Source of the DNA: an uncultured Ruminococcus sp.
Lineage (GTDB): Bacteria; Bacillota; Clostridia; Oscillospirales; Ruminococcaceae
DNA: 64,000 nt
Direction of reading: 5' to 3'
NCBI GenBank assembly: GCA_900318825.1
Contig: ONMB01000004.1
Coordinates: 1-64,000 of the forward strand
How positions within the stretch are numbered: position 1 is the first letter of the stretch; every line of letters begins with the position of its first letter. Below, one piece after another: positions 13,549 to 48,708 of this stretch. The notes below the pieces were generated by a model, which saw only the letters and a list, made by a program, of their open reading frames with translations, did no database searches and had not been told where the DNA came from. Position numbers and translations under genes: made by a program.

Positions 13549-13619
13549 TGTGTTGACTTCATGAAGTCCACACAGATACGAAGTATTTTCGTATGCGTAT
13601 CCGCCGGATATCAAGGCGG
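13549..13619 (+). other. Structured 5' leader of GH48
   Basis: Three stems in a row. First, 13549-13574 is a near-perfect palindrome around GACTTCATGAAGTC with flanks TGTGT/ACACA. Second, GATACG (13575-13580) pairs with CGTATC (13596-13601). Third, CCGCC (13601-13605) pairs with GGCGG (13615-13619). No T run follows, so these are not a plain terminator. They may stabilise the mRNA, or the first may be a protein-binding operator. Confidence 0.6.
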
Positions 13620-13684
13620 TGCAGATATTTATTCATTTTCAAACCACTTTTAACCAAATCTATTATGAGAGGGGTAAAAAACAA

Positions 13685-16273
13685 ATGATAAGCAAAAAGA
13701 ACAAGGCTCTCGTTGCAAGTATCCTTGCTGCTGGAATGTCAGCTGCTGCTATCGTTCCTACTGCTGCAAGTGCTCTGACAGACGGTACTACAACAAAGAA
13801 CACTTATGCTAAGGAGTCCAACAAGTCCTATGCAGAAATGTTCGAGTCACTCTATGATGACGTTGTTACAAACGGTGTTAAAAACGGCTACCTCAGCAGC
13901 CAGACAAACGGAAGCGGTTCCTTCGGAATCCCTTACCACGCTGTTGAAACACTCGTAGTTGAGGCTCCTGACTACGGTCACGAGACAACTTCTGAGGCTA
14001 TGTCTTACATCGTATGGATGGCTTCTATGCACGATGTTCTCGCTAAGAAGGGCGTTATCAGCGGTTCAACCGGTGACCTCGCTAAGTCTTGGAAGACTCT
14101 TGAGGCTATCGTTCCTGGTTGGTCTGAGGCTTCAGGCATCAACAAGGAGATCAAGTATAACACTATCTGGACACAGGAAAGACTTAAGGCTGATCCTGCT
14201 TCAGAAGAGCCTACACCTGAGAACTATCCTGACAAGCAGACAAAGCTCGGTGAGGACGCTCTCAACCCGCTGTTCAAGACTTTCGCAGCTGCATATTCAG
14301 GCGATAACGGTTACTACCTCATGCACTGGCTCGCAGACGTTGATGACTGGTATGGTTTCGGCGGCGGCACACCTGGCGCTGGCACAGGTAAGTTCACATT
14401 CATCAATACATTCCAGAGAGGTGAGGAAGAGTCTTGTTTCGAGACAGTTCCTCAGCCTTGTATAGAAGAACTCAAGTACGGTACTAAGACCGGCGGTATC
14501 AAGGCTATCTTCAACGGCGATCCCGTTCCGGAGCAGTATGCTTTCACAAACGCTCCTGACGCTGAGGACCGTGCTATCCAGGCTGTTTACTTTGCAAACA
14601 GATACAGCGCTGGCGACAGCAGTGTTTCTGCACTCGCTGGTAAGATGGGTGACCAGTGCCGTAACGACATGTTCGATAAGTACTACAAGGAGATCGGCTG
14701 CCAGACACCTAACGCTTCTTCTTCAGCTGACGCTCAGAGCGGTTCACTTGGTAAGTTCGGAAGCCAGCACTACCTCATGGCTTGGTATACATCATGGGGC
14801 GGAGCTCTCAATACATACTACGGCGGTTCTTACGACTGGGCTTGGCAGATCGGATGCTCACATTCACATCAGTTCTACCAGAATCCTCTCGCTGCTTATG
14901 CTCTCCTTTATGATGATAGCATCAGCGCAGGTATGAAGGCTGACGGAGCTAAGGCTGACTACGAAGAGTCACTCAAGAGACAGATCGAAATGTATCAGTG
15001 GCTCCAGTCTAAGGAAGGCCCGTTCGCTGGTGGTTGTACAAACTCCTACAACGGACGTTACGACAAGTATCCTTCAGATCTTCCTACATTCTATAACATG
15101 GTATTTACTGCTCACCCTGTATATGCTGACCCGGGTTCAAACCACTGGATCGGTAACCAGGTATGGTCTACACAGCGTCTTGCTGAGCTTTACTACGATG
15201 TAAAGATCAACGGCGATAAGACTAACGGCAAGTGCAAGCCCGGCGGACTTTCACTTGAGGAAGCTCTTGATAAGCTCCTTGAGAGATGGATCGGCTGGTT
15301 CGAGAAGGAAACTAAGTTCAATAAGGCTGACGACTACGGCAACATTATGGAATACGCTATTCCTTCAAACCTCGACTGGGGCGACGGCGGTCACCACACA
15401 GATCCTGACTGTGTACCAGATACATGGAAGGGCTCTTACAGCGAGACAGCTAACCAGAAGCTCAGCTGCGAGATCACTGGCTATGGTCAGGGAGATATCG
15501 GATGCGTATCCTCACTCTGTAATACTCTTATCTACTACGCTGCTGCTAACAAGGTTGATCCTAAGTACGCTCAGGAAGAGGGTACATCAGTAGCTGAAAA
15601 GGGTCTCCTCCTTGCTAACAAGCTCCTCACAGCTCAGTACAACCTCGGCCGTGACGAGATCGGTATCGCATTCAAGGATCACAACGGAAGCCTTGACAGA
15701 CTCTTCACTCAGAAGGTTTACATTCCTTCAAGCTATAAGGGCACAATGCCTGACGGCTCTAAGCTCGAGAGCGGCGCTACATTCAGCTCTATCCGTGAGT
15801 CTTATAAGAAGGATAAGATGTATCAGGACTGCGAGAATTACTACAAGGGCAAGGGCACCGATAACAACGGCGACGGAAAAGTTGACGTTAAAGACTTCGA
15901 GTACTACCTCCACAGATTCTGGCACCACGGTGATGCTGTAATGGCATACGGCGGAATGTCACTCCTCTATCCTGAGGTTAAGCCTTATGTTGATCCCGAC
16001 CATGAAGAAGAGTCTTCTACTTCTACTGAGGAAGAGCTCAAGATGACTAAGTGGGGCGACGCTAACCTCGATAAGACCACAAACATCGCTGATGCTGTAC
16101 TCGTAATGCAGGTTGCTACAAATCCTGACAAGTACGCTGTTGGTAAGACAGACCTCAGCATCAAGCCCCAGGGTGTTGTTAACGCTGACGTTGACGGCAA
16201 GAAGGGTCTCTCTAACTCCGACGCACTTCTCATTCAGAAGTATAAGCTCGGTCTTTACACACCTGAGGCTTAA
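13685..16273 (+). CDS. GH48 cellulase with C-terminal dockerin (cellulosomal)
   Basis: Processive cellobiohydrolase, normally the most abundant enzyme of a cellulosome; it releases cellobiose from cellulose ends. Order: signal peptide (1-~30, ending near PTAASA), GH48 (alpha/alpha)6-barrel domain (~35-740) and dockerin (~790-860). The block GHETTSEAMSY at 98-108 contains the conserved acid, Glu104 by comparison with family members. WGDANLDKTTNIADAV and NADVDGKKGLSNSDAL are the two calcium-binding dockerin repeats, separated by a long insert. No CBM is present, as usual for this family. I place the start at ATG 13685 (MISKKNKAL), with GAGAGGGG at 13667-13674; the frame is open further upstream but without a signal peptide start. 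Codon bias is as strong as tuf. Confidence 0.96.
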   Translation: MISKKNKALVASILAAGMSAAAIVPTAASALTDGTTTKNTYAKESNKSYAEMFESLYDDVVTNGVKNGYLSSQTNGSGSFGIPYHAVETLVVEAPDYGHETTSEAMSYIVWMASMHDVLAKKGVISGSTGDLAKSWKTLEAIVPGWSEASGINKEIKYNTIWTQERLKADPASEEPTPENYPDKQTKLGEDALNPLFKTFAAAYSGDNGYYLMHWLADVDDWYGFGGGTPGAGTGKFTFINTFQRGEEESCFETVPQPCIEELKYGTKTGGIKAIFNGDPVPEQYAFTNAPDAEDRAIQAVYFANRYSAGDSSVSALAGKMGDQCRNDMFDKYYKEIGCQTPNASSSADAQSGSLGKFGSQHYLMAWYTSWGGALNTYYGGSYDWAWQIGCSHSHQFYQNPLAAYALLYDDSISAGMKADGAKADYEESLKRQIEMYQWLQSKEGPFAGGCTNSYNGRYDKYPSDLPTFYNMVFTAHPVYADPGSNHWIGNQVWSTQRLAELYYDVKINGDKTNGKCKPGGLSLEEALDKLLERWIGWFEKETKFNKADDYGNIMEYAIPSNLDWGDGGHHTDPDCVPDTWKGSYSETANQKLSCEITGYGQGDIGCVSSLCNTLIYYAAANKVDPKYAQEEGTSVAEKGLLLANKLLTAQYNLGRDEIGIAFKDHNGSLDRLFTQKVYIPSSYKGTMPDGSKLESGATFSSIRESYKKDKMYQDCENYYKGKGTDNNGDGKVDVKDFEYYLHRFWHHGDAVMAYGGMSLLYPEVKPYVDPDHEEESSTSTEEELKMTKWGDANLDKTTNIADAVLVMQVATNPDKYAVGKTDLSIKPQGVVNADVDGKKGLSNSDALLIQKYKLGLYTPEA

Positions 16274-30970: not shown

Positions 30971-33499
30971 TCAGAGCTGAACTTCGTGACCGTCAATTGT
31001 TATAACGCCCGATGTTAAGTCTTCTGAGGGCTCCGGAAGTGGGAGCTTATCATAGAGTCCGAGCTTGAACTTCTGGATAGTGAGGGCATCTGAGTTAGTT
31101 AAACCGCTCTTGCCGTCAACGTTGCCCATCTTCTTGCCGTATTCGGAAATGCTCTTTTCTGACTTGCCGACATCGTACTTATCAGGATTTGTAACTACCT
31201 GCATAACGAGTACGGCGTCAGCGATATTAACCTGACCGTCAGCGTTTGCGTCGCCCCAGAGTTCGTTGTGAGTCTCACCTGTTATGTCCTCTGATGTGGG
31301 CTGAGGTGAAGTCTCGTTGGGAGCTGTTTCGGCGAGGAGGTATGTGAGCGGAGAGTTCCAGTAGATAGTTATCTCGTTTGTGGAGTAGCTCTCAGCGTTG
31401 TCGATGAAGCATCTTGCAGCAGGGGAGTTAGCACAGTAAGCCTTTGCAGCACTGTCCTCGAGGTTCTGGTTTACACCGCCTGCGAGCATACATGGCATAG
31501 CCTTGCCTACGACCATTGAAGGACGGTGGTGGGGGTGTTCAGGAGAAACAGTGCCCCAGCCTGAAACGAAGCATACGCCGTTGGGGTTCTGACCGAGGAG
31601 GTAGCTGAGCTGAGCGTTAGCGCCGTCAAGGTACTTCTGCTCCTTTGTCAGATCATAAGCGATAGCCATGATATTTCCTGCATTTGCGATAGTCATATTG
31701 CTGCCCCAGTTGAATTCTGAAATAGCAACGCCGTAGGGGTTGGACTTGTAGGTCTCGATGAATTCGTCAGCCTGAGAGATAACAGCATCGTAAGCGTTCT
31801 TGTACACATCTGAAGTCTTGTCAATGTCCTTCAACGTGAGGATAGCGATATTGCCGTAGTCGCCGACAGTTGACCAGTCGAGACCGGTTCTGGTCTTCAT
31901 ACCCTTGAGCGCATTGTAGTACTTCTCGCTTCCGGTGGTGCGGAAGAGCTGAGCGGCAGCCCAGTAACGCTCATCGACATCGGTTTTGTCGCCGTAGTCG
32001 CCAGTAACGATGTCCTTGGGGTTTGTGAAGTCAAAGTCGGGGTGCTCTTCGAGATAAGCCCAAGCCTTTTCAGCAGCAGCAAGGCACTTTTCAGCGAATT
32101 CCTTGTCGAATTCTTCATAGAACTCAGCAGCCATAGCCATTGATGCGCAGAAATCAGCAGTTGCAGTTGAGGATATGGGAGTTACGATGAGCTCATCTGT
32201 TTCCTTCTGGGGCATAATATATCCAGGGAATTTTGCGCAGGAGACCTTGTGGTGAACGCCGCCGTTTTCGTCCTGCATCTTGAACATCCACTCAAGCTCG
32301 AAACGTGCTTCGTCGAGGATATCCGGGACCTTGTTTCCGCTCTCGGGGATACCGATATTGTCGCCGAACAGACCGGGTTCAGCCTGATAAGCGTAGAGAA
32401 GGTCAGCAATGGTCTTAGCGCCCGGAACTACATACCTTCCGTAGTCGCCGGCGTCGTGCCAGCCGCCGCTGACGTCGATCTTCTGAGTTGTACCGTAAAC
32501 GGTAGCGAGCGATTTATGGCAGGCAGGGTGACCGAAGTCCTTGTCCTCGACCTCAACGCCGCAGCGCTGTAAATAGAGCATTCTTACGGACTCATCTGTG
32601 AGTCCCTTGTAAACGTTGTCGCCGATATAGAAGCTGTAAGACTTATCGCAGCCCTCGACCTCGATGTGGTAGTCGCCGGGTTCGCGGAGGTCTGAGAAAT
32701 CGCCTAAGCGGTCCTCGTTTTCGTCGGCAGCTGCATATTTCTGGGCAGGGGCGAGCTCGTTTTTGAATGCAACTTCTCCGGTCTTGTCGTTGATGACCTT
32801 GAATTCAATGGGAGATGTTGAGTCGTCGAGACCTTTCTTTCTTACAACGACATACTTCTGTGAATCAGGTCTGTAACCGACCTGGTTTAAGATGATATCG
32901 GGCTCGTAGGGCTTGTCAGCGTTGTAATCGACCTCGCTGTCGTCAACGAGCTCGAGAGAAACGTTGTCTATGTAGATAGTGTGCTTGGGGAGATAGCCCT
33001 CGTAGTCCTCATAGAAGCCGCAGTTGAAGCAGAGCTTTGACATAATATCTGTCTTGTACTCCATTGTGAAGTCGTACTCAACAGTCTGCGGTTCGGAGGT
33101 AAGGTCGAGCTCCTTCCATGTATATGACGTGTAGTTGCCGCCGTTCTGCTGTATCATAGCCTCGATATGGCGGTCAATGGTGCTTGAAATGTCGTACTTG
33201 ATGTGGTACTTTCCGTTCTTATAGAGCGGAATGATGTCATAGAATGCCTGAACGGAGTAGTTTACCTTACCGACATTAGTGATGTTGATGGCGAGTTTTT
33301 CGTCCTCGGTGGTAAGAGTGCAGGCACCGTTGCGCTCCTTGTAGGTACCCCAGCCTGAAGTGCCGTTTTCAAAGGTGGAGTTTTGGATGAGCGGTTTGTC
33401 AGCTGCGCAGGTTGCTGTCGGCACGACGGGCATAGCTGAAGCCATGAGCGCACAGGCAGCGGCAATCGCAGCAAATCGCCTCATTTTTCTTGTTTTCAT
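30971..33499 (-). CDS. GH9 cellulase with CBM4-like, Ig-like and dockerin modules
   Basis: Secreted cellulosomal endo/processive glucanase. Order: signal peptide (1-~32), CBM4/9-type module (~35-190, STFENGTSGWGTY ... IYIDNVSLEL), CelD_N Ig-like domain (~205-290, DIILNQVGYRPDS), GH9 barrel (~295-735) and dockerin (~755-825). The catalytic Asp region is GGWHDAGDYGRYV and the acid Glu is in AESYSTNEITIYWNSP. HPHHRPS is the family's His-rich motif. Dockerin repeats NADGQVNIADAVLVMQV and GNVDGKSGLTNSDAL belong to the same class as GH48 and the LRR protein. The ribosome site GAGAGGGG lies in the loop of a hairpin (33503-33523). Confidence 0.95.
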   Translation of the reverse strand: MKTRKMRRFAAIAAACALMASAMPVVPTATCAADKPLIQNSTFENGTSGWGTYKERNGACTLTTEDEKLAINITNVGKVNYSVQAFYDIIPLYKNGKYHIKYDISSTIDRHIEAMIQQNGGNYTSYTWKELDLTSEPQTVEYDFTMEYKTDIMSKLCFNCGFYEDYEGYLPKHTIYIDNVSLELVDDSEVDYNADKPYEPDIILNQVGYRPDSQKYVVVRKKGLDDSTSPIEFKVINDKTGEVAFKNELAPAQKYAAADENEDRLGDFSDLREPGDYHIEVEGCDKSYSFYIGDNVYKGLTDESVRMLYLQRCGVEVEDKDFGHPACHKSLATVYGTTQKIDVSGGWHDAGDYGRYVVPGAKTIADLLYAYQAEPGLFGDNIGIPESGNKVPDILDEARFELEWMFKMQDENGGVHHKVSCAKFPGYIMPQKETDELIVTPISSTATADFCASMAMAAEFYEEFDKEFAEKCLAAAEKAWAYLEEHPDFDFTNPKDIVTGDYGDKTDVDERYWAAAQLFRTTGSEKYYNALKGMKTRTGLDWSTVGDYGNIAILTLKDIDKTSDVYKNAYDAVISQADEFIETYKSNPYGVAISEFNWGSNMTIANAGNIMAIAYDLTKEQKYLDGANAQLSYLLGQNPNGVCFVSGWGTVSPEHPHHRPSMVVGKAMPCMLAGGVNQNLEDSAAKAYCANSPAARCFIDNAESYSTNEITIYWNSPLTYLLAETAPNETSPQPTSEDITGETHNELWGDANADGQVNIADAVLVMQVVTNPDKYDVGKSEKSISEYGKKMGNVDGKSGLTNSDALTIQKFKLGLYDKLPLPEPSEDLTSGVITIDGHEVQL

Positions 33500-33571: not shown

Positions 33572-33614
33572 ATTATATGTTGTTGAGATTATTTTGTATA
33601 TTAATTATATGACA
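33572..33614 (-). promoter_or_regulatory. GH9 promoter with TGTCATA upstream motif
   Basis: Minus strand: TGTCATA (33614-33608), exactly 30 bases, TATAAT (33577-33572). No convincing -35 box lies between. The same layout precedes GH5 and GH10-GH43. Confidence 0.65.
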
Positions 33615-33637
33615 TTAATAGTAAAAATTTGACATAT

Positions 33638-33668
33638 AAAAATAAGGACCGTTTAATCAACGGTCCTT
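33638..33668 (-). terminator. Terminator of the araC gene
   Basis: AAGGACCGT (33644-33652) and ACGGTCCTT (33660-33668) flank a 7-base loop containing the stop codon; the minus strand continues with a T run. Confidence 0.85.
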
Positions 33669-34411
33669 GACATATCGAATGTATACTGTTTTTTGTACTT
33701 CTTTGGGGTGGTTCCGATGAACTTGCGGAAAACCTTTATGAAGTAGCTCTGCGAACTGAAACCAAGCAGAGCGCTTATCTCCGTATCCGTGTACTCTGTA
33801 TACAGCAGCAGGGAAGCAGCTTCCTCTATTTTCAGCTTGTTCACATAGTCGCCGAACGCCATGCCTGTCTCCTTTTTGAAGAGACGCGAGAGGTAAGCCG
33901 GGCTTATCTTCAGCAGCTTTGCGGTGTCATCGAGGAGTATGCGTTCATGAAGGTGGCGCATGATGTGGTCTATCGTGTGGACTATCTGCTTTGAGTAAAC
34001 GCCGCTGAGTTTGATCTTGCGCATTTTATTGGTATAGCCTTCGATCATCTCAATGTGTATCTGGTTGAGCTCCTCCTCAGTAGTACACTTATCGGTCTTG
34101 ATGATGTAGTAGTCGCTGAGGCTGTAAGAGGTCTCGGGCGTCATACCGCCTTTGATGCAGTATCTTGCGATGATTGCTGCGAGAACGACTAAATGGTATT
34201 TCAGGTTGCGCAGGTGGTCTTCGCTGAGAACGCCGCAGCCCTCTGAGAATATCGGTTTCATAAAGAGTCTGACGAGCTCCATATTTCCGGAGCAGATGCT
34301 TTCATAGAAAGCGATCTCTCGGTCAAAGGAGTCGTGCGATAAGTCGGATTCGCGCTGTGAAAAGAGGTGCTGTGCGATCATTTTCTCTGTATTTTCATTC
34401 AAATCGATCAT
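33653..34411 (-). CDS. AraC family transcriptional regulator
   Basis: About 252 residues. The C-terminal ~100 carry two helix-turn-helix units: LLDDTAKLLKISPAYLSRLFKKETGM and TDTEISALLGFSSQSYFIKVFRKFIGTTPKKYKK, the AraC signature. The N-terminal part (FYESICSGNMELVRLFMKPIF, AIIARYCIKGGMTPETSYSLSDYYI) is an all-helical region found in Firmicute AraC regulators, without a cupin-type sugar pocket. It lies between GH9 and GH5, both read leftward, and likely controls them. The promoter -10 overlaps the longer frame starting at 34444, so translation begins at ATG 34411 or, with better spacing from GGGGG, at TTG 34402. Confidence 0.9.
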   Translation of the reverse strand: MIDLNENTEKMIAQHLFSQRESDLSHDSFDREIAFYESICSGNMELVRLFMKPIFSEGCGVLSEDHLRNLKYHLVVLAAIIARYCIKGGMTPETSYSLSDYYIIKTDKCTTEEELNQIHIEMIEGYTNKMRKIKLSGVYSKQIVHTIDHIMRHLHERILLDDTAKLLKISPAYLSRLFKKETGMAFGDYVNKLKIEEAASLLLYTEYTDTEISALLGFSSQSYFIKVFRKFIGTTPKKYKKQYTFDMSRTVD

Positions 34412-34434
34412 CCCCCGATCAAATATCTGAGAAT

Positions 34435-34463
34435 AGTATACCACAATTCAGAGGATAAATCAA
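34435..34463 (-). promoter_or_regulatory. Promoter of araC
   Basis: Minus strand TTGATT (34463-34458), 17 bases, TATACT (34440-34435). It lacks the TGTCATA motif of the neighbouring hydrolase promoters. Confidence 0.75.
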
Positions 34464-34503
34464 CAATTTTCGTCCAATTTCTGTACTTTTTGCCAAATGA
34501 AAT

Positions 34504-34527
34504 GCGGACAGCCGTGAGACTGTCCGC
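34504..34527 (-). terminator. Hairpin after the GH5 gene
   Basis: GCGGACAG (34504-34511) pairs with CTGTCCGC (34520-34527). Only a short T-rich stretch follows on the minus strand, so termination may be partial. Confidence 0.5.
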
Positions 34528-34588
34528 GTAAATGCGATATTCCTGAAAAATAAGATATTTATGGAGGAGATAAGAACACATAAGTGTC

Positions 34589-35542
34589 TTAAATATATTT
34601 TAGAATATCGCCTCTTACACTATTGAGACGCTCGGAAGTAAGACCGAAGTCCATTTCCTTGTAGCTCCAGATAGATCTGCCGATGCCGTGCTTTTCAAAA
34701 ACAGCGTTGATGCACTTGAGCCACTTCAAGGTATCCTCTGCGCTGACAACGTCGATAACGCCGTACTCGCCGCAGTAGAGCTCTGTGTTGTTATCCTCAG
34801 CCTTTTTGATAGCAGATGCGAAGAATTCCTCAAAGAATTCCTCACTGCAGCCTGAGTCCTCGAAAGACATTCTCTCGTCAGGATCGATAGCGTCGGTCCA
34901 GTAAGCTCCCTGATGAGTGAACTTGAGCGGATCGTAGCAGTGCATATTATATATGACCTTGTCGTCATAAGGCGGATCGAGTGCGAACACAGTTGCGGCA
35001 CTGTTATTCTGGTAGCTTCCTACGAGAATGATCGTATCGGGAGCAAATTTGCGGATACGTTCGATGCAGTTGCGGGCAATGCGATTCCATTTTTCGATGA
35101 AAGCCTCGTCGGTCACCTCATTGAGAAGTTCAAAAGCGATGTGGTCAGGATCATTGCCGAAGCGCTGAGCGACCTGTTCCCAGAGCTTGTAGAAGCGTTC
35201 CTGGAATTTTTCACTGTCGAAGAAGCCGCTTTCGTTTTCGCCGTAGTAGTCGAATGAGAAGCCGGCAGTCTTGTGAAGGTCGAGAACGACGTTCAGACCG
35301 TACTTTTTGCTGAGCTTTACGGCGTCAGCAAGACGGGTGAAGCCGCTTTCAATGTAATTGCCGTCTTTGTCCTCGATGATATTGTAGTCGAAGGGAATAC
35401 GAACGTGGTCGGCGCCCCATTCGGAGATAGTTTTGAAGTCGTTTTCGGTAATGAAGTTATTGAGACGGTCCTCACTGTAATCGCACTGTGAAAGCCAGCC
35501 TCCGAGGTTGATACCTTTGTAAAAGCCTTTATCCTTTAACAT
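34589..35542 (-). CDS. GH5 family glucanase, cytosolic, no dockerin
   Basis: A 317-residue single-domain (beta/alpha)8 hydrolase. GINLGGWLSQ opens the fold, HVRIPFDYN carries the conserved Arg, LLNEVTDE holds the acid/base Glu (~141) and YCGEYGVID the nucleophile Glu (~253). There is no signal peptide, CBM or dockerin, so it should act on imported cello- or manno-oligosaccharides in the cytosol. This fits ruminococci that import cellodextrins. Its promoter shares the TGTCATA layout with GH9 and GH10-GH43. AGGGAG precedes the ATG. The exact substrate cannot be set without subfamily analysis. Confidence 0.9.
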   Translation of the reverse strand: MLKDKGFYKGINLGGWLSQCDYSEDRLNNFITENDFKTISEWGADHVRIPFDYNIIEDKDGNYIESGFTRLADAVKLSKKYGLNVVLDLHKTAGFSFDYYGENESGFFDSEKFQERFYKLWEQVAQRFGNDPDHIAFELLNEVTDEAFIEKWNRIARNCIERIRKFAPDTIILVGSYQNNSAATVFALDPPYDDKVIYNMHCYDPLKFTHQGAYWTDAIDPDERMSFEDSGCSEEFFEEFFASAIKKAEDNNTELYCGEYGVIDVVSAEDTLKWLKCINAVFEKHGIGRSIWSYKEMDFGLTSERLNSVRGDILKYI

Positions 35543-35571
35543 ATCATCACTCCCTTATGTAGTATGATGAC

Positions 35572-35626
35572 ATTATAGCACATTTTCACAGAAAAATATA
35601 CCACTATTATGACATTAATGACATTT
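35572..35626 (-). promoter_or_regulatory. GH5 promoter with doubled TGTCATA-type motif
   Basis: Minus strand: TGTCATA (35614-35608), 30 bases, TATAAT (35577-35572) preceded by TGC. A second TGTCATT lies at 35625-35619. The 12-bp stretch TATGACATTAAT (+ strand, 35608-35619) is identical upstream of GH9 (33608-33619). Confidence 0.7.
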
Positions 35627-35646
35627 ATTTTAAATACAATAAAATT

Positions 35647-35836
35647 CCCGCATATAGCAGCTTTACGGTCTGAGAGGGGGAACCGGCTGCTGTATGCGGG
35701 AGTAATTAGCTGTTTTAAGAAAGGATTTCAGCCGTGTAAGAAACACGGCTGATCGTCTGATTTGTCCATACCCTTACATATGAAAGTTCAGATTTATTAA
35801 AATCGGCAGCCGCCGTTGTGCAGTTGACGGCTGTCG
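35647..35836 (-). terminator. Three hairpins after GH10-GH43
   Basis: Stem 1 is 35804-35812 with 35828-35836, followed on the minus strand by ATTTTAAT, and is the best terminator. Stem 2 is CAGCCGTGT (35729-35737) with ACACGGCTG (35743-35751). Stem 3 is a 15-bp stem 35647-35661 with 35686-35700 (two G-U pairs) and a partly paired loop. No gene is present in this 305-base gap. Confidence 0.65.
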
Positions 35837-35847
35837 ATCCTAATCAG

Positions 35848-38800
35848 TTATGAAAGGCTCCAGTAGTCTATCTGTACATCATCGCTGAATACGAAGTAGA
35901 TGCTATTGCTGCCTGTTGCTGAGTTAACAGCGGGAACTGTAATGTCCTTTGCATTGCTCTCGAGCTGAACGTAGCCGAGAACCTTGCCTGTGGGTGAGCC
36001 AACGCAAACCTTAACAGCTGCATTCTTGCTTGAAGAACCGTTGATGGTTATCTTGTTAACGCCCTTTGAGAGGTCAGCGCCTGTAACCTTGATCCAATCG
36101 CCCTTACCGCCTGTAACCTTGGTATCGCGGAGACCTGTTACGGAAACTCCTCTTGACTGGTTAGACATTGTCTCAGCCTGTACCTTGGTGTAGGGATTGA
36201 GAGCTTCGATCTGTGAAGTACCCTTCATATCGCCTGAGCAAGAGAACTTGCCGTTGCTGAAGGATGCCTCGTTGATCTGAGTTGAACGGTAGTTACCGTC
36301 TGCTGTAAGCTGATCCTTGTTGTTGTAGATCTTGAGTCCGTCAGTATTTACCATACGGATAGCCTGCTGACGGCTGTGGTAAGCTACATAGTACTTACCC
36401 TTGAAGTAAACGATAGAGTGGTGGTTATTACCGCCCTTATCTATACCCTGTGAACCAGTGTTCTTGAATACGTTTCCTGCGAGCTTGCTGGAGTTCCATT
36501 CAAGCGGGTTAGTAGACTTCATGTAGAGGATATCTGCATTGCCGAAGTTAACGCCGTTAACTGTCTTGTTTCCAACGTCCCAGTTGGAGCAGTATGAGTA
36601 GTACCAAGTGCCATCGACCTTGATAACGCTTGAGTCCTCGAAGAGGTAAGGGATATCCATCTTTACAGGATTGCCTGAAAGTGAAACCTTGTTCTTTTCG
36701 AGATTTACCTTTACAACTCGGCCGGTTCCGGGAGTAGCTGCGGGGATACCGTTCTTTCTGCCGCCGCCGAAGAAGAGGTAGCATTCATCAGTCTTGTCGT
36801 CGTAGTAAACGCCGGGGTCGAACATCCACTCAACATCTGAGCAGTTAGGTGAGCTGTGTGAGAGGAGAGCACCGCCGATAGGATCGGTCCAGGGACCTGT
36901 CGGGCTGTCGCCCATAACAACGCCGATACCGCCGCCGCTGTTAGCGAAGAAGAGGTAGAACTTTGTAGTACCGTCGCTGAATGTCTTGCAGCAGGCATCG
37001 GGAGCCCATGCAGCGCTTGCCCACTTAGCAGCACCGTTTGAAGTTCTGCCGTTTCTGTCAGCGATAGGCATTGCACCGTGGTCGGTCCAGTTTACCATAT
37101 CAGCTGTTGATACGCAGTTGATAGTACCTGAGTTGTAGGTATTTTCCTGCATTCTTCCGTCGCTCTTGTACTCAAAAGCGTCGTTTGTTGTATAGAGGTA
37201 GAGTCTTCCGTCGTAAACCAGCCAGCCGGGGTCAGCGCCGAAACGCTGAGTTGTAAGCGGGTTGTTCTCGCCGTCCTTCTTCCAGCTGATCTTAGTGGAA
37301 ACGTTCTTGAAGAGTCCTTCCATAGCGGTGATATCAACAACCTTTTCAGCTACGGGGAACTTTGTTATTCTGCCGAGGAGATAATTCTGAAGGAGAACAA
37401 CGTCAGCAGCTTCAAAAACGCCGCTCTGGTCAACGTCAGCAGCCTTCTTTGTAAGGTCGTCTGAGAAGCCGCCCTTAACGAGGCTTCTGCGTGCGAGGAT
37501 AGAATCGAATACGTCTATTCTTCCGTCGAATGTGAGGTCGCCGAGTACGAGAGTGCGTACTGTGGGTTTGCCTGCGCCTGCGATCTTAGTGCCTTCAACA
37601 GCACCGTAAACATCGTCAACGTAGAAGTTGGGGTATGTAGCGTCCTCAGCTTCCTTGCCTGCGGACTCAATGTAGATGTAAGCACTTGTAGCGCCCTTGG
37701 GGATAGTATAGCTTGTGTTAGCGAGCTGGAGCCATTCGCCCTTGGGAGCAGTACCCTCAGCGATAGAATCGTACTGAGTCTTACCGTCAGCATCTGTATA
37801 CTCGAGTTTCATCATAAATGTTTCGGACTCTTCATCGCCGTCGAGGTAAGATACATTTGCTGAGAAGCTGAAAGCCTTGCCAGCCTCGAAGGGGTTGGAA
37901 TCAAGTGCGAATTTAGCACCGTTCCAGCCAGCTGTTCTGTCCTTGACAAGGAGAGACTCGCTGCCCTGATAAGCTGTACGTCCGCTTGTGAGAACTTCGC
38001 CGGCAAATCTTGTTTCCCAGCTGTTTAATGCGCCTTCAAATGTGTGGTGGAAGTAATAGCCGTTGGAATCGGGCTTAACGGGCTCCGGAGGTGTGTAAGG
38101 ACCTGAACCGGGACCTGTATAGGGCTTGCCTATACCCCAGTCGCTGTCAGCAACGAGATTTGTGATAGCTGTATAAGCTGACTTGGGCTGGTTATTGCCA
38201 GTGTAGAGAAGCGGGCTGTTAGGTTTTCCTGAATTCTTATCCGTAGCCACCCAAGAATTATTGTCGTTGGGGCCCCATACCTGAACGAGAGTAACGTTAG
38301 GTCCGTTGGGGTGGCTCTTGTTCCAGTCCATAGCATGCTTGAAAATAGCAGCATATTTAGCTGACTGCTGTGAATCTGAATATTTGCCTCCCTCTGTTGA
38401 GAGATCAAGCTCTGTTACCTGAACATCGATACCGAGGTTGAGGTATTTATCCATAGCAGAGAGGTAAGAGTTTGTATCGCCCCATGCACCGCTTGCAGCG
38501 CAGTTGAGGTGAGACTGCATACCCATACCATCGATGAGTCCCTTCTTCTTCAGCGGAGAGAGAATGGTGTTGATGATACAGTTCTGCTTGTCATAAGCAA
38601 ATTCATTGTAGTCGTTGTAATAGAGCTTACAGGTTGAAGGAGCATATTTCCTTGCGTAGGTGAAAGCCTTTTCAACGAACGAGTTATTACCGTAAACTCT
38701 TACCCAAGCTGATGAACCGTTCTGTCCGTTTGTGCCGTTTGTAGGTCTGAGACCTCCGTTGCCGGCAGTGCCGTCGTAGATGACTTCGTTACATACGTCG

Positions 38801-39786
38801 TATGCGTAGAGGTCGAGTGATGGATACTGGTTCTTGAAAGCGTCAAACATATTCTTGATGTAGCTTTCCATACGCTGATCCATAGTAGATGAATTTACAT
38901 AACCGTTATTATTGTTGAAGCCCTGCTTGAAGAACCATTCCGGAGTCTGGCTGTGCCATACGAGAGTATGACCGCGGAAGCCCATTCCGTTCTTCTGGGC
39001 AAAATCTGCGATAGCAGCGCAGCGGTTGAGTGATACCTTGACATTTGTATCGGTCGAGCCGCTCTGAACGATAGTAGCATCAGGCTTTGTCTCGTTCTCA
39101 CACTCAATAGCATTGTGATCCTTGAGCATAATAGCGGTGATAGCCGAGTTTGTAACAGTACCGCCGTTGAGGATATTTCCTACACGGAAATACTTTGCGA
39201 ATTCGTCCTTGAGTCCCTTTCCTGCAGGAGCTGCCTTAGCTTCACCGAACTTCTTCTTCTGAGTGATGAGCACATCGTCGAACCAGAAGTCGTTAGTGCT
39301 GTCGGTAGTGAGAGTCATGAGGTACTCGTAAGTATTCTCGGGAGCCTTGAATGAGGTTGAGAGGTCTGTCCATTCGCCGGCCTTTACGTCCTTGTTGATG
39401 AGCTCAACAGTAGTTTCCTCATTGGTATCCATATCCTTATACAGAAGTGTAAGGTGGAAAGTTTCGTTCGTTTTAGCAAAAACCTTGAGGTTGTAGGTAT
39501 AGTTTATACCGCCCTCGAGCCAAAGGCCCTTTGAAGAAGCGGCACCGTCGGCAGGAGTAGTTCTGCCTGTAACAGCCATACCGCGTGAGTTTTCAAAGCC
39601 TGCACCATTAACGGCTTTGATCTCGAATTCGTTTGTTGTACCATGCCAGCCTTCGTAAGTGACTTCAAAGTCATTGCTGACTACTGAAGCAGCATATGAA
39701 GGAGCAACTGCGCCGGGAAGTACTGTCAGGAAACTTGCCATGCAGGCAGCAGTTGTAGCAGCGGCAAACAATCTGCGTTTCTTCAT
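35848..39786 (-). CDS. Bifunctional GH10 xylanase - GH43 enzyme with CBMs and internal dockerin
   Basis: Large secreted hemicellulase (1,312 aa). Order: signal peptide (~1-31), CBM22-like module (~35-190), GH10 domain (~200-560) with HTLVWHSQTPEW, acid/base Glu in DVCNEV and nucleophile in VTELDLS; a second CBM22/CBM4-like module (~575-735); a dockerin in the middle (~750-815, LTFDGRIDVFDSI and VDQSGVFEAADVV); a GH43 beta-propeller (~835-1180) with RFGADPGWL, AAWAPDAC, FDPGVYYDD and LFEDSSVI; and a CBM6-like C-terminus (~1195-1312). Xylan cutting and side-chain or xyloside removal are combined in one chain. Start ATG 39786 follows AAGGAG; upstream in-frame starts lack a signal peptide start. 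Confidence 0.94.
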   Translation of the reverse strand: MKKRRLFAAATTAACMASFLTVLPGAVAPSYAASVVSNDFEVTYEGWHGTTNEFEIKAVNGAGFENSRGMAVTGRTTPADGAASSKGLWLEGGINYTYNLKVFAKTNETFHLTLLYKDMDTNEETTVELINKDVKAGEWTDLSTSFKAPENTYEYLMTLTTDSTNDFWFDDVLITQKKKFGEAKAAPAGKGLKDEFAKYFRVGNILNGGTVTNSAITAIMLKDHNAIECENETKPDATIVQSGSTDTNVKVSLNRCAAIADFAQKNGMGFRGHTLVWHSQTPEWFFKQGFNNNNGYVNSSTMDQRMESYIKNMFDAFKNQYPSLDLYAYDVCNEVIYDGTAGNGGLRPTNGTNGQNGSSAWVRVYGNNSFVEKAFTYARKYAPSTCKLYYNDYNEFAYDKQNCIINTILSPLKKKGLIDGMGMQSHLNCAASGAWGDTNSYLSAMDKYLNLGIDVQVTELDLSTEGGKYSDSQQSAKYAAIFKHAMDWNKSHPNGPNVTLVQVWGPNDNNSWVATDKNSGKPNSPLLYTGNNQPKSAYTAITNLVADSDWGIGKPYTGPGSGPYTPPEPVKPDSNGYYFHHTFEGALNSWETRFAGEVLTSGRTAYQGSESLLVKDRTAGWNGAKFALDSNPFEAGKAFSFSANVSYLDGDEESETFMMKLEYTDADGKTQYDSIAEGTAPKGEWLQLANTSYTIPKGATSAYIYIESAGKEAEDATYPNFYVDDVYGAVEGTKIAGAGKPTVRTLVLGDLTFDGRIDVFDSILARRSLVKGGFSDDLTKKAADVDQSGVFEAADVVLLQNYLLGRITKFPVAEKVVDITAMEGLFKNVSTKISWKKDGENNPLTTQRFGADPGWLVYDGRLYLYTTNDAFEYKSDGRMQENTYNSGTINCVSTADMVNWTDHGAMPIADRNGRTSNGAAKWASAAWAPDACCKTFSDGTTKFYLFFANSGGGIGVVMGDSPTGPWTDPIGGALLSHSSPNCSDVEWMFDPGVYYDDKTDECYLFFGGGRKNGIPAATPGTGRVVKVNLEKNKVSLSGNPVKMDIPYLFEDSSVIKVDGTWYYSYCSNWDVGNKTVNGVNFGNADILYMKSTNPLEWNSSKLAGNVFKNTGSQGIDKGGNNHHSIVYFKGKYYVAYHSRQQAIRMVNTDGLKIYNNKDQLTADGNYRSTQINEASFSNGKFSCSGDMKGTSQIEALNPYTKVQAETMSNQSRGVSVTGLRDTKVTGGKGDWIKVTGADLSKGVNKITINGSSSKNAAVKVCVGSPTGKVLGYVQLESNAKDITVPAVNSATGSNSIYFVFSDDVQIDYWSLS

Positions 39787-39958
39787 AATAATCATCTCCT
39801 TAATATTATTAACTGGACACACGATTCCGTACTTGTCAAAAACTATTATATACTATTCATTATTTGTTCACAACCCACAATGTGCAGATTAGGTGGAAAA
39901 AATGAATATAAGTCAGATAGTTTTGTGACGAGTGCCGACCACTATCGCTTATATATAT

Positions 39959-40002
39959 ATTATAACATGGTATATGTGGAAAAGTATGCAACTTTTATGA
40001 CA
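39959..40002 (-). promoter_or_regulatory. GH10-GH43 promoter with TGTCATA upstream motif
   Basis: Minus strand: TGTCATA (40002-39996), 31 bases, TATAAT (39964-39959), then a leader of about 165 bases without a gene or clear hairpin. No -35 box at the right distance. Confidence 0.6.
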
Positions 40003-40057
40003 AAAATGATAAAATTTTGATATCTTGATAAGCTGGCTATCAATAATAATTAAATAT

Positions 40058-40089
40058 AAAAATTAAGGAACGCTTATGAGCGTTCCTTA
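40058..40089 (-). terminator. Terminator of the phosphoesterase gene
   Basis: TAAGGAACGCT (40064-40074), loop TATG, AGCGTTCCTTA (40079-40089); the minus strand continues with a T run. Confidence 0.9.
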
Positions 40090-44648: not shown

Positions 44649-47600
44649 TCAGATGGGCTGGAAGTTATTGTGTGCGATAACGTAGTATGTAAGAGGCTCG
44701 TGAGTATCCTGCATACCGCCTGTAACACCGCCAACAGCGGGTATCTTACCGCTTGCAAGCACGAAGTTTGTCTTAGCAGTTGCGTATTTACCCTTTACGT
44801 CACGTCCAAGTTTAGGACCTACCTTTGTAGTCATATTAGCGAGTACCTGCATAAAGTATGCGGGGCAGTAGAACACTTCTACATGATATACCCAGCTTCC
44901 TACGATAGAAAGACGGCAGTACTTATAGAGCTTTTCGTTTTTAAGCTCGCTTGTAAGTGTGTTGAGCTCTGTCTGAGCACCTGAATAAGTTACATGTCCC
45001 AAGTTGTCTTCCCAAACCTTTGCGTCACTATCGCTGTTGTTGAAGACGTAGAGCTCATTACGGTTGGAAGCGATATTTCTGAATGAGCTGAGAGTATCGG
45101 AGAATACATCTGAGTCGATGCTGTCATAGTCGTGATCAGTGAACCATTCCCAAGAATTTGTTTTGTCAGTGAAGGGATTAGAATCTTCATAGTTGTCTTC
45201 AACGCTTATTGATCTTGTTGTTCCGTACTTGTGGAAGCCCCAGTAAGTAAGGGGAAGTGTAGGAACGAGGTCATCTTCGTTTACAACATTGAAGATAGTG
45301 CTGTAGCTTGTTGAATTGCTGTCTGTTGTGCAGTTAGGTGTTGCGAATGCGTATGTGTAAGAAAGGAAGTTAGCGTTGTTCTCAAACTTAGCGCCGAGGA
45401 TATCAGCAATAGCAGCACCTCTTGAGTGACCGCAGATAAGGATAGAACCGTTTGAGATACCGTAAGTGCGGAGGTAAGTTTCGATCTTTACCTGAGCTCT
45501 GTTTGCTGCTACGTCAAAGCCCTTGTGGTTGGACTTGTTTGTCCACTCAGGGTGAGAACCTGTGAGTGTTGTATAGTTAGTTGTATCTGCACCAACGTCG
45601 AAGTTGCTTGACCATTCAGAGTTAGTTCCGTTTGTACCTCTTACTTCAACGATGACAACTTCCTTTGCACCGCTGACGGTAACGACCTTTCTGTGACCGA
45701 TGATGATCTCTGTAACATCATCTGTATCCTTGCCGTTTGTTGAAATGATGTCGTAGTCCTTAACGTCCTTGCAGCCAAATCTTGTGAGGAGATCTCCAGG
45801 GGTGTCAGAACCGCCTGTGATACCATTTGTCCATTCAACATATGTATTATTATATGCGTCAGAAGCACCGAGGATAGAGAATACTGAGAGATCCTTCTTA
45901 TATGTTGTATTGTTTGAAAGAAGGTTGCGGTAGTCCATCTTGAGCTCTACCTTTTCTTCAGTTTTTCTGTAATCCTTACCTTGCTTCCAGTGGTAATAGC
46001 CCTTGAAGAGGTTGTTTGTTCTTGCAGCATTGGGCTTGGGTGAAGAATCCTTCTTATCGTCGATACCGTCGAAGTCTGTATCGGGAAGAACAGGGTTGGA
46101 GCGAGTCTTCCACATTGTAGTAGTTGTCTTGCCCTTGTAGAGATCGGGATCAACGCCCTTGCTTATATATAATGCTCTGATGAGTGAAGTAAGATCAACT
46201 TCCTTCTTTGTGCCGAGCTCGTAAGCGTCTGTAAGACCGTCGTCATCGGAGTCAGTAGAGCTGATCTTGTCGATCTTGTCCTTGAGCTGAACTACTGAGT
46301 AGTCATCGAGGAGTACCCAGTCACCGCCCTCGTTTGTATCCTCGCCGACCTTCTTAGCGATACCGAGGAGGATGTCGCTGAAGTTGCCGTAGATGTTTCC
46401 GTAGAGACCGCCGGTAGAAGAAACGAGGTTCTTGTAGTAGCTTTCGCTTGAAGAGATAGCGGAAACGATGATGCCGTCAGCAGCGAGCTTCTTGGTCATC
46501 TCGTCCATATCCTTGATACCGCTGATGTTGTCATTCTTGTAGTTGATATCGGTAACGAGAACAACATACTTTGTAGAGCCCTTTCTCCAGTTGGACTTGC
46601 GGGCGAGCTCGAGAGCGTCGATAGGAGTCTCGGGGGCGTCACCGCCGCCGTTTACTGAGAGTGCATTGATCTCAGCCTTGAACTTGTCAGCGTTTGTGAA
46701 CCAGTTGGAGGAGAGATACTTGTGCTGCTTTGTGGAGTTGTTGCCGTCACAGGTGATGTCACGGTACTCGATGAGTGAGAAGTTTACATTAACTTTGTAA
46801 TCGTTCTTGAGTGTCTCTGCAAACTTGTTTACGTTTGACTTAACGTTGCTGATAGCGCTGCCCATAGAGCCTGTTGTATCAATAACGAAAACGATGTCGG
46901 ACTGACCGAATGCAGAAGCATCTGAAGGATATGTGGGAGCTGCAACTGTATCAATACCGGCAGCGTTCTTGAGCTCCTCGAAGTCTACGGGAGCCGGAGC
47001 CTGATAGTTGGGAGCATCAACGTCGATCTCAGCTTCCTCAGCAGCCTTTACAGTTGCCTCAGAAGAGGGAAGAGAAGCTGCTTCAACATCAGCCATAGGA
47101 TCAATACCGAAGCCCTTGAGGAATTCGTCGAGGTCAGTAACGAAGTAGTATGCGTCATCTGTTACCTCAGCAGAAAGTGTGTGCTTATCCTTGTCTACCT
47201 TTGTATCGAGAACCTTGAGTTCTTCGTTGTCGAAGCAGAATATAGCAAGGTTGCTTGTGTCGCCTGAAACAGAAGCGTCATATGTGAATGTAAGAGTTAC
47301 AGGCTCGTGATCCTTTGAAGTGAAGTCGATAACGTCACTGAGAACTGAACGGTTGTCAGCAAATGAAGTTGTCTCGTCTTTCTCAAGGTTTACCTTGCGG
47401 TCGATGAGACCGGAAACGCTGCCTGAAACAGAGGGCTTGAACACGTTGTCGCTCTCTGCGAGAGTTTCGCTCATAGCCTTTGTTGAAGTTACCTGAGCGA
47501 TCTTCTTCTCACCGTCGGGAGTTGTTCCGTCAGTGGAAGCCTTTGTGGGATCAAGGCTGAGCTTGAGCTCATCGGGATCAATGATGCCGTCGCCGTCTGT

Positions 47601-48692
47601 GTCAGCCTTTGTAGGATCGGTACCGTGAGTGTTTACCTCTTCACCGTCAGAGAGGCTGTCGCCGTCTGTATCAGCCTTTCTCGGGTTTGTACCGAGCTCC
47701 TGTTCCTTGCCGTTTGAGAGGCCGTCTCCGTCCTCGTCCTCGTCAAAGTCACTTACGGAATTATCATCAGAGTCAGCCTTTAACGGGTTAGAACCGAGCT
47801 TCTTTACCTCGAAGCCGTCTGTGAGACCGTCGCCGTCTGTATCAGCCTTTGTGGGATCTGTTCCGAGAGCGGCTTCGTCACTATCTGAGATGCCGTCGCC
47901 GTCAGTGTCAGCGGCAGCCTTCTCGATCTCAGCCTTCTCGAATGCGTATGAAACCTCAGCAGAGATGTTGAGTGACTTGCTTTCGCTTGTGATAGTTGTG
48001 TCAACGTTGATAGAGTTGGAGATGAGACCGTCCTCCTCAGCAGCGTGAACGAATGCCTCGTAAGGCATTGAAGAAGAAATGAGCATAAGGCTCAGAATGA
48101 AACTGAAAGTCTTCTTGTTCAGCTTGCCCTTCTTGCCGAGGTAAAGTGCAAGTGAAGCTGAAAGAACGAGTGTTACAGCAGCTCCGGAAACGCCCTTTGC
48201 ACCTGTCTTAGGACTGTTCTCGTCGTTTGCAGCAGCTGCGGAAGTTGAAGAAGAGCTCTGTTCAGTTGAAGCTGCGGAAGTTTCAGTTGAAGCAGATGTC
48301 TCTGAAACGGCTTCGGTAGCGGTTTCGGAAGCAGCTTCTGAAGTTGCTTCGGAAGTAGTCTCAGCGGACTTTATAGCGATTGCTGAGATGCCTATTTTCT
48401 CGCCAGCCTTGAGGCTGATCTTTTCTTCGGGTGTTTCGTTGAGCTTGAATTCGAGCTCATCAGGAAGCAGGAGCTTTACGTCGACGTCATTAACGTCAAA
48501 TGCGTTGGTGTTTGCAATAGTGACGTTAAGGTTTACCTCTTCTCCGACGTTGTAGTCGGTCTTATCAGAGGCGATCCTGACTGAAATGCCATCCTGCAGT
48601 TCGTCAGATGCAGCATTCGCAGACATCGGAGCAAGCGCTGAAAGGCTTGCAACTGCTGCGAGCGAGCAAGCTGCCAGTAAATGTTTTTTCAT
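44649..48692 (-). CDS. Large surface protein: internal sortase-like anchor, TSP3 repeats, VWA and lipase regions
   Basis: About 1,347 residues. Order: signal peptide (~1-28); small beta-domain (SDKTDYNVGEEVNLNVTIANTN, ~40-110); Ser/Thr/Glu linker; SPKTG at ~160-164, a hydrophobic segment and KKGKLNKK, i.e. a sortase-type sorting signal; immediately a second signal-peptide-like segment (~195-217); five or so thrombospondin type 3 calcium repeats (DTDGDGISDSDE.., ~255-385); a VWA domain with MIDAS DTTGS (FVIDTTGSMGSAISN, ~610); and a class-3-lipase-like region with nucleophile elbow GHSRGA (~1090). The frame is unbroken. Start ATG 48692 follows GGAGG. Likely secreted and calcium-dependent; adhesion or lipid/ester hydrolysis is inference. 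Confidence 0.88.
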   Translation of the reverse strand: MKKHLLAACSLAAVASLSALAPMSANAASDELQDGISVRIASDKTDYNVGEEVNLNVTIANTNAFDVNDVDVKLLLPDELEFKLNETPEEKISLKAGEKIGISAIAIKSAETTSEATSEAASETATEAVSETSASTETSAASTEQSSSSTSAAAANDENSPKTGAKGVSGAAVTLVLSASLALYLGKKGKLNKKTFSFILSLMLISSSMPYEAFVHAAEEDGLISNSINVDTTITSESKSLNISAEVSYAFEKAEIEKAAADTDGDGISDSDEAALGTDPTKADTDGDGLTDGFEVKKLGSNPLKADSDDNSVSDFDEDEDGDGLSNGKEQELGTNPRKADTDGDSLSDGEEVNTHGTDPTKADTDGDGIIDPDELKLSLDPTKASTDGTTPDGEKKIAQVTSTKAMSETLAESDNVFKPSVSGSVSGLIDRKVNLEKDETTSFADNRSVLSDVIDFTSKDHEPVTLTFTYDASVSGDTSNLAIFCFDNEELKVLDTKVDKDKHTLSAEVTDDAYYFVTDLDEFLKGFGIDPMADVEAASLPSSEATVKAAEEAEIDVDAPNYQAPAPVDFEELKNAAGIDTVAAPTYPSDASAFGQSDIVFVIDTTGSMGSAISNVKSNVNKFAETLKNDYKVNVNFSLIEYRDITCDGNNSTKQHKYLSSNWFTNADKFKAEINALSVNGGGDAPETPIDALELARKSNWRKGSTKYVVLVTDINYKNDNISGIKDMDEMTKKLAADGIIVSAISSSESYYKNLVSSTGGLYGNIYGNFSDILLGIAKKVGEDTNEGGDWVLLDDYSVVQLKDKIDKISSTDSDDDGLTDAYELGTKKEVDLTSLIRALYISKGVDPDLYKGKTTTTMWKTRSNPVLPDTDFDGIDDKKDSSPKPNAARTNNLFKGYYHWKQGKDYRKTEEKVELKMDYRNLLSNNTTYKKDLSVFSILGASDAYNNTYVEWTNGITGGSDTPGDLLTRFGCKDVKDYDIISTNGKDTDDVTEIIIGHRKVVTVSGAKEVVIVEVRGTNGTNSEWSSNFDVGADTTNYTTLTGSHPEWTNKSNHKGFDVAANRAQVKIETYLRTYGISNGSILICGHSRGAAIADILGAKFENNANFLSYTYAFATPNCTTDSNSTSYSTIFNVVNEDDLVPTLPLTYWGFHKYGTTRSISVEDNYEDSNPFTDKTNSWEWFTDHDYDSIDSDVFSDTLSSFRNIASNRNELYVFNNSDSDAKVWEDNLGHVTYSGAQTELNTLTSELKNEKLYKYCRLSIVGSWVYHVEVFYCPAYFMQVLANMTTKVGPKLGRDVKGKYATAKTNFVLASGKIPAVGGVTGGMQDTHEPLTYYVIAHNNFQPI

Positions 48693-48708
48693 AAGATCCT
48701 CCATTCAT

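Follow-up and report, generated by a model that had tools for sequence, protein, structure and literature searches.

A conserved 43-bp promoter element before fibre-degradation genes of Ruminococcus and its candidate AraC-family activator

We analyzed 64,000 nucleotides from an uncultured Ruminococcus sp. (assembly GCA_900318825.1, contig ONMB01000004.1, positions 1 to 64,000; hereafter the window), in which a 43-bp promoter element or a variant of it precedes three glycoside hydrolase (GH) genes, encoding GH9, GH5 and GH10-GH43 enzymes, that flank a gene for an AraC-family regulator (araC). The element recurs at a fixed distance from TATAAT before fibre-degradation genes of related genomes and, before correction for ancestry, co-occurs with close orthologs of the regulator. 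Judging from these sequence comparisons, the AraC protein of the window is likely to be a class II activator of a small fibre-degradation regulon acting through the 43-bp element, with the link to this protein rather than to another regulator as the weakest step of the reading. The source is a Ruminococcus-type draft genome of 2.02 Mb, 84% complete, in which the contig of the window is labelled C59; genomes, contigs and loci are referred to below by G, C and L labels.

The 43-bp element and its distance from TATAAT

The original prediction held that TGTCATA is followed by 30, 30 and 31 bases and then TATAAT before GH9, GH5 and GH10-GH43, and this is exact at all three promoters. The window contains three matches to TGTCATA-N28..33-TATAAT (33572-33614, 35572-35614 and 39959-40002, all on the minus strand) against an expectation of 0.02 (100 shuffles, largest count 1), and TGTCATA alone is mildly enriched (15 occurrences versus 6.9 expected, with 15 reached in 1 of 100 shuffles). 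The whole-genome search that the prediction had called for returned five matches, namely the three window sites and two within open reading frames of 393 and 406 aa; with two of five matches intragenic, the exact 7-mer plus TATAAT is too crude to define a regulon. The 12 identical bases said to be common to the GH9 and GH5 promoters (ATTAATGTCATA) were recovered, as was the second TGTCAT of the GH5 promoter at 35617-35622. The box is only the TATAAT-near half of a longer element.

That element emerged as a conserved block in the araC-GH9 intergenic DNA of relatives, with the consensus TGTCATgATTTTACYATTTTTgTCATaAAAATTRTATAcTTTT. It carries two TGTCA half-sites, at element positions 1 and 21 and therefore 20 bp apart. 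With TATAAT placed at -12 to -7, these half-sites begin at -69 and -49, and the conserved TATAC covers -35 to -31. Before GH10-GH43 the element lies at 39980..40022 on the minus strand (distal half TATCAAAATTTTATCAT, proximal half TGTCATAAAAGTTGCATAC), with TATAAT, located by pattern search like the other two -10 boxes, 15 bp further on at 39959..39964. The GH9 element occupies 33592..33634, also on the minus strand and at the same position as in relatives (distal TGTCAAATTTTTACTAT, proximal TGTCATATAATTAATATAC), and is followed after 14 bp by TATAAT at 33572..33577. Before GH5, pattern and matrix scans place a variant at 35592..35634 on the minus strand, in which the proximal half is intact and the other TGTCAT stands 9 bp upstream instead of 20; its TATAAT, again 14 bp on, lies at 35572..35577. 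The sites are very AT-rich (GC 0.15-0.23).

We then scanned with a model (R1) and a matrix (A1) built from 21 sites of relatives and none from the window. In the own genome, the GH10 site was the one significant R1 match (E 2.6e-7, whole genome), and the GH5 site was not found by R1. The matrix ranked the GH10 site first in the window (43.8), GH9 second (23.5) and GH5 third (-0.2), while the best scores of 100 Markov windows averaged -11.2, with a 99th percentile of -0.1 and a largest value of 3.9. The GH5 variant, with TRTCAW standing 9 bases upstream and 14 bp separating the element from TATAAT, also appears in the close relatives L043, L044 and L048, and full elements precede GH5 in L121 and L123 and, in another genus, in L214; we regard the window's GH5 site as putative from its proximal half, its spacing and these relatives. 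A 28-base pattern allowing up to 3 mismatches matched exactly the three window sites in the own genome, with none for a reversed control; as it was written with the window sites in view, this three-for-three is not independent.

The distance to TATAAT is nearly invariant across the wider collection. Among 94 distinct sites with matrix scores above 12, 21 of them training sites, a TATAAT matching at five or more of six positions lies exactly 14 bp past the element in 82, no other spacing from 6 to 26 giving more than 10. The 73 non-training sites behave alike (61 at spacing 14, at most 9 elsewhere), and a -10 of 4/6 or better stands at 14 or 15 bp in 90 of the 94. This set covers sequences of at least 120 bases with at least 26 bases after the site, outside loci L010-L041 (so that, for example, L209 and the second site of L117 fall out of it). 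Of the four sites without a -10 at 14 or 15 bp, which were set aside in the repeat analysis below, L122 is probably true and L207, L211 and L215 are probably chance matches. The claim that the boxes sit where a class II activator would bind fits these data, in that the element overlaps the -35 region and keeps a fixed 14 bp to the -10 (82/94, with -10 boxes and start sites assumed). The accompanying claim that none of the promoters has a -35 box at 16-18 bases survives for GH5 and GH10, where the scan finds none, and fails for GH9, where TATACA-N17-TATAAT matches at 10 of 12 positions; this TATACA is a partial -35 (4/6) whose TATAC belongs to the conserved element, at the -35 position.

In the mechanism that we propose, AraC DNA-binding domains would sit on a pair of direct half-sites (TGTCA...YAT) with a period of 20 bp, of which the proximal ends on TATAC at the -35 position, and the bound protein would let RNA polymerase start from the TATAAT 14 bp on (15 for GH10) without a good -35 hexamer, its contact with polymerase replacing that hexamer (class II activation). 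Activation is favored over repression because of the poor -35 and the rigid spacing. GH9, GH5 and GH10-GH43 would be the targets in the own genome, whereas in relatives GH9 would be the usual target, joined by GH16, GH5, GH10 and other fibre genes, and the all-helical N-terminal domain of the regulator would probably act as a signal sensor.

Co-occurrence with the regulator and rival readings

To link element and regulator, we compared their distribution across 125 genus genomes, 101 of which carry a close AraC ortholog (E<=1e-60). A strong element (R1 E<=1e-4) was present in 68 of the 101 genomes with the ortholog versus 4 of the 24 without (Fisher p 1.4e-5, a test that ignores ancestry). The difference persisted among genomes at least 90% complete (42/61 versus 1/10, p 7e-4) and upon removal of the 20 R1 training genomes (48/81 versus 4/24, p 3.5e-4), which had been picked for araC beside a conserved downstream site. 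Element and araC also occur together unlinked: 13 of the 30 best loci have a boxed GH9 gene without araC in the flank (1.5 kb searched on each side, the upstream flank of L104 being cut by a contig end), and 12 of these 13 genomes carry araC elsewhere, the exception being G074. R1 E-values are rough: 12 of 292 family genomes outside the genus had E<=0.001, and among these 12 the element is full in G151, G240, G261, G315, G323 and G377 and imperfect in G329, and the matches in G141, G190, G205, G361 and G400 were rejected as looking like partial chance matches. Each of the six genomes with a full element also possesses the ortholog; one of them, G315, is either the source of training locus L007 or a genome identical to it at that locus. 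In G323 the gene after the element lies beyond the contig end.

A number of observations weigh against the proposed role of the AraC protein. On a PriA tree of 120 of the 125 genomes (no PriA match in G015, G019, G047 and G072; a partial match in G027 left out), about 5 independent pairs changed the same way, 0 the opposite way and 8 were tied (median p 0.0625), with 5.1 to 0.4 pairs at a relaxed cut (p 0.125) and 3.4 to 0.6 once the training genomes were removed (p 0.375); with a weak test, the ancestry-corrected association is consistent in direction and only suggestive. Four genomes of 70-93% completeness (G036, G074, G079 and G098) have a strong element and no close ortholog, and 33 of the 101 genus genomes with the ortholog show no strong element (24 at the relaxed cut). 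Outside the genus, 11 of 17 genomes with the ortholog show no element at E<=0.001, and G329 has its imperfect element, before GH9, without the ortholog. No element was found in the nine sufficiently long of 11 regions before GH9 in seven ortholog-less genomes, G074 and G079 excepted; this absence is partly a difference between GH9 lineages, because many GH9 paralogs have no element even in genomes that possess the AraC ortholog. The window's GH9 site reached only R1 E 2.55 genome-wide (0.024 in the window), its GH5 score lies at about the 99th percentile of the Markov best scores, and no clear element is seen before the GH5 orthologs of L049 and L052.

The alternative that deserves the most attention, although we consider it unlikely, is that the element is a true operator bound by another regulator, either a paralogous AraC (such as that at G000:C46:11032-11754) or a dyad-reading dimer of another family, with araC as a co-inherited neighbor. 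It would account for the four strong-element genomes without a close ortholog, two of which contain a 42% paralog, and for a tree-corrected association short of significance, but element and ortholog co-occur even when unlinked and in all six out-of-genus genomes with the full element. The symmetry of the element speaks to the same question. With periods of 8-25 compared, the best-fitting direct repeat has a period of 20 (correlation 0.50 over 23 column pairs), and the letter frequencies of columns 1-8 closely resemble those of columns 21-28 (correlation 0.97), including the G/A choice at 2 and 22. An inverted repeat, TACYATTTTT-GTCAT-AAAAATTRTA (positions 13-35, centre 24), ties with it in the first measure and reaches a correlation of 0.56 over 19 column pairs (versus 0.50 over 23) in the second, a further point against our proposal; a dyad fits the element about as well. 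Its arms, however, are mostly A and T, and C14 stands opposite A34 (0.74) rather than G, whereas the columns that carry G or C agree better with the direct repeat (C4 pairing with C24, G/A2 with G/A22). Because AT-rich arms favor such symmetry and C14 faces A in most sites, we lean tentatively towards the direct repeat over an equally well supported dyad.

The remaining alternatives fare worse. The AraC protein could instead repress, its site covering the -35 region and blocking polymerase until an inducer releases it, which the overlap with -35 and the partial TATACA of GH9 (4/6) would allow; we hold this to be improbable, given that no -35 was detected for the TATAATs of GH5 and GH10, that the -35 position reads TATAC and not TTGACA across the site collection, and that a fixed 14-bp spacing is what contact with polymerase would demand. 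Chance likeness of AT-rich promoters, to which the low GC of the sites and the roughly twofold excess of the 7-mer alone would lend some color, is scarcely credible and, where the entire element is concerned, stands refuted by three sites against 0.02 expected, by R1 E-values down to about 1.7e-12 at non-training sites (G100 and G053), by the spacing peak at 14 in non-training sites and by the kinds of genes downstream. Activation by the AraC protein of the window remains the likeliest reading.

Target genes in relatives and organization of the locus

We next considered which genes follow the element, taking site positions from the R1 genus scan down to about E 0.003 and mostly leaving aside partial matches with E of about 0.0001-0.01. 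At R1 E<=0.01 the element is present in 94 of the 125 genus genomes, and an AraC search of these genomes returned 30 loci, many of which retain the order araC-GH9. The next gene at the 30 best-scoring loci, 13 of which are training sites, is GH9 in 28, GH16 in one (L115) and a gene for a truncated protein in one (L110), whose dockerin-like stretch was seen by tblastn only. At 40 further sites, hand-chosen from the R1 list (one site, in G065, belongs to both sets), the next gene encodes GH9 (18), GH16 (10), a CBM6/Ig-like/DUF1565 protein (4), a second AraC (3), GH5 (2), GH10 (1), a GDSL/glucuronoyl esterase with dockerin (1) or GH98 (1), so that a gene with a recognised glycan-active domain follows at 33 of the 40. 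Pfam supplied the assignment of all 10 GH16 genes, and the GH9, GH5 and GH10 calls were made by tblastn to the window proteins; L125 was dropped as a GH9 locus upon Pfam showing GH16. In L129, L130, L136, L138, L145 and L146 the element precedes GH16 and then araC, in place of GH9. The element also lies between araC and a different AraC-type gene in L149, L150 and L151 and, more weakly, in L173-L175; the second AraC gene of L149-L151 precedes a gene for a GH11-CBM-GH16 protein (CBM, carbohydrate-binding module), an arrangement that suggests a two-step cascade.

Within the own genome the set of targets looks like a small regulon and not general control of the cellulosome, because three elements (up to 3 mismatches) stand against 45 dockerin matches, 40 of them over the cut-off, in a draft that may lack about 16% of the genome. 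Matrix and R1 scans revealed no convincing element before the GH48 cellulase gene of the window (13619-16273), which is probably under different control. The idea of a local regulon with the AraC protein as its activator is supported by the conserved element before GH9, the fixed distance to TATAAT and the co-occurrence with the ortholog; its extent needs revision, as the regulon of other genomes is not strictly confined to one locus and takes in genes besides GH9, GH5 and GH10-GH43.

On the minus strand of the window the genes run in the order GH10-dockerin-GH43, GH5, AraC and GH9, with domains confirmed by Pfam, and the regulator is indeed encoded between GH5 and GH9 as first described. The gene at 35848..39786 (minus strand) encodes a GH10-CBM-dockerin-GH43-CBM6 protein, with an ATG at 39786 before a leader-like sequence, the mechanical open reading frame starting from a GTG at 39822. 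It is followed on the same strand by a GH5 cellulase-family enzyme (34589..35542), the AraC-family regulator (33653..34402; 249 aa with an assumed TTG start) and a GH9 cellulase with CBM4_9, CelD_N and GH9 domains (30971..33499). An AraC protein 97% identical to that of the window is found in a locus labelled R. flavefaciens RUG11186. The araC gene has its own normal promoter-like sequence in the promoter scan, TTGATT-N17-TATACT (34435..34463, minus strand), and, as had been claimed, neither the box pattern nor the relatives' matrix finds a match before araC. Each of the four genes probably has its own promoter and transcription unit, because terminator-like hairpins, all on the minus strand, follow GH10-GH43 (35728..35752), GH5 (34504..34527) and araC (33644..33668) and another lies upstream of the GH10-GH43 promoter (40064..40089). 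Near the cluster, at 44649-48704, the window encodes a 1351-aa protein with TSP3 repeats and VWA and class 3 lipase domains.

The AraC protein, known systems and significance

The proposed activator carries a C-terminal AraC DNA-binding domain with two helix-turn-helix motifs (PF12833/HTH_18, 1.6e-22; PF00165, 3.1e-16), which places it in the AraC/XylS family, and this half has fold matches to MarA, AraC and SoxS domains. Alignment of 28 orthologs showed hardly any variation at the residues of the recognition helices (around S168-F176 and S217-K224), and much of the N-terminal half is conserved too. That half is all-helical in an AlphaFold2 model (mean pLDDT 81) and gave neither a Pfam match nor a confident fold-search match, and the cupin sugar-sensor AraC subfamily was rejected on the modelled helices and the lack of a Pfam match there. 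Response regulators of the XydR/YesN type were set aside as Pfam finds no receiver domain, and the YSIRK-adjacent regulators (TIGR04094) as the score was 117.5 bits against a cut-off of 200. A paralog 42% identical to the AraC protein is encoded at G000:C46:11032-11754, and paralogs of 38-43% identity occur in many genus genomes.

In E. coli, araI2 overlaps the -35 and the araI half-sites have a period of 21 bp. The likeness to araI1-araI2 of pBAD lies in two adjacent half-sites for AraC-type domains upstream of the promoter, and the differences in the missing cupin sugar pocket (the N-terminal model being all-helical), a half-site period of 20 and another half-site sequence. According to the excerpts of the papers on which we draw here and below, E. 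coli AraC at araI2 recruits RNA polymerase, the araI1-araI2 half-sites of pBAD being adjacent (PMC4760080). XydR of Clostridium (Ruminiclostridium) cellulolyticum likewise has an AraC-type DNA-binding domain and regulates dockerin/CBM6 hemicellulase genes, its authors noting direct and inverted repeats near predicted -35 boxes (PMC3572039); unlike the AraC protein of the window, it belongs to the response regulators, with a receiver domain and a kinase as partner, and the excerpt gives no consensus site for it. The ECF-type sigma/anti-sigma (extracytoplasmic function) systems of Clostridium thermocellum similarly exert subset-specific control over cellulosomal genes (PMC10766802), but they use alternative sigma factors, whereas the window promoters keep TATAAT. 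By structure or sequence, the DNA-binding half is best matched by the C-terminal domains of AraT (6swi) and YesN (3lsg) and by Rns and ToxT, the last two being longer proteins with alignment TM-scores of at most 0.39.

Expression studies of cultured ruminococci touch the same gene families. In R. albus 7, RNA-seq showed a more than 4-fold rise on cellulose for two cellulases each of GH9 and GH5, which may or may not be products of boxed genes, with no regulator named in the excerpt (PMC4300822). The R. flavefaciens FD-1 array is without a CBM4-GH9 gene, as far as the excerpt goes (PMC2721979), and in R. flavefaciens 007 the substrate had less effect on GH9 protein than on other proteins (PMC3672088). 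Among the titles and abstract openings of the open-access literature on the subject, which we covered in part, none names this regulator or site, and an AraC-family class II activator of this kind is apparently new and unpublished. To our knowledge, little has been established on how cellulases are switched on in Ruminococcus, which is among the main degraders of fibre in the rumen and gut.

More tentatively, and with somewhat more doubt than confidence, the AraC protein may represent a new regulator family that is old in fibre-degrading relatives (Ruminococcus plus three or more neighbouring genera in the same family) and that would combine a new helical sensor domain and a 43-bp operator with a small entry set of beta-glucan and xylan enzymes headed by one particular GH9, extended in one lineage into an AraC cascade (L149-L151). 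A named protein, an exact proposed operator and three targets in one locus, together with more than 100 species, make the question directly testable. If the proposal is true, it would describe a hitherto undescribed switch for cellulose and xylan digestion in Ruminococcus and its relatives.

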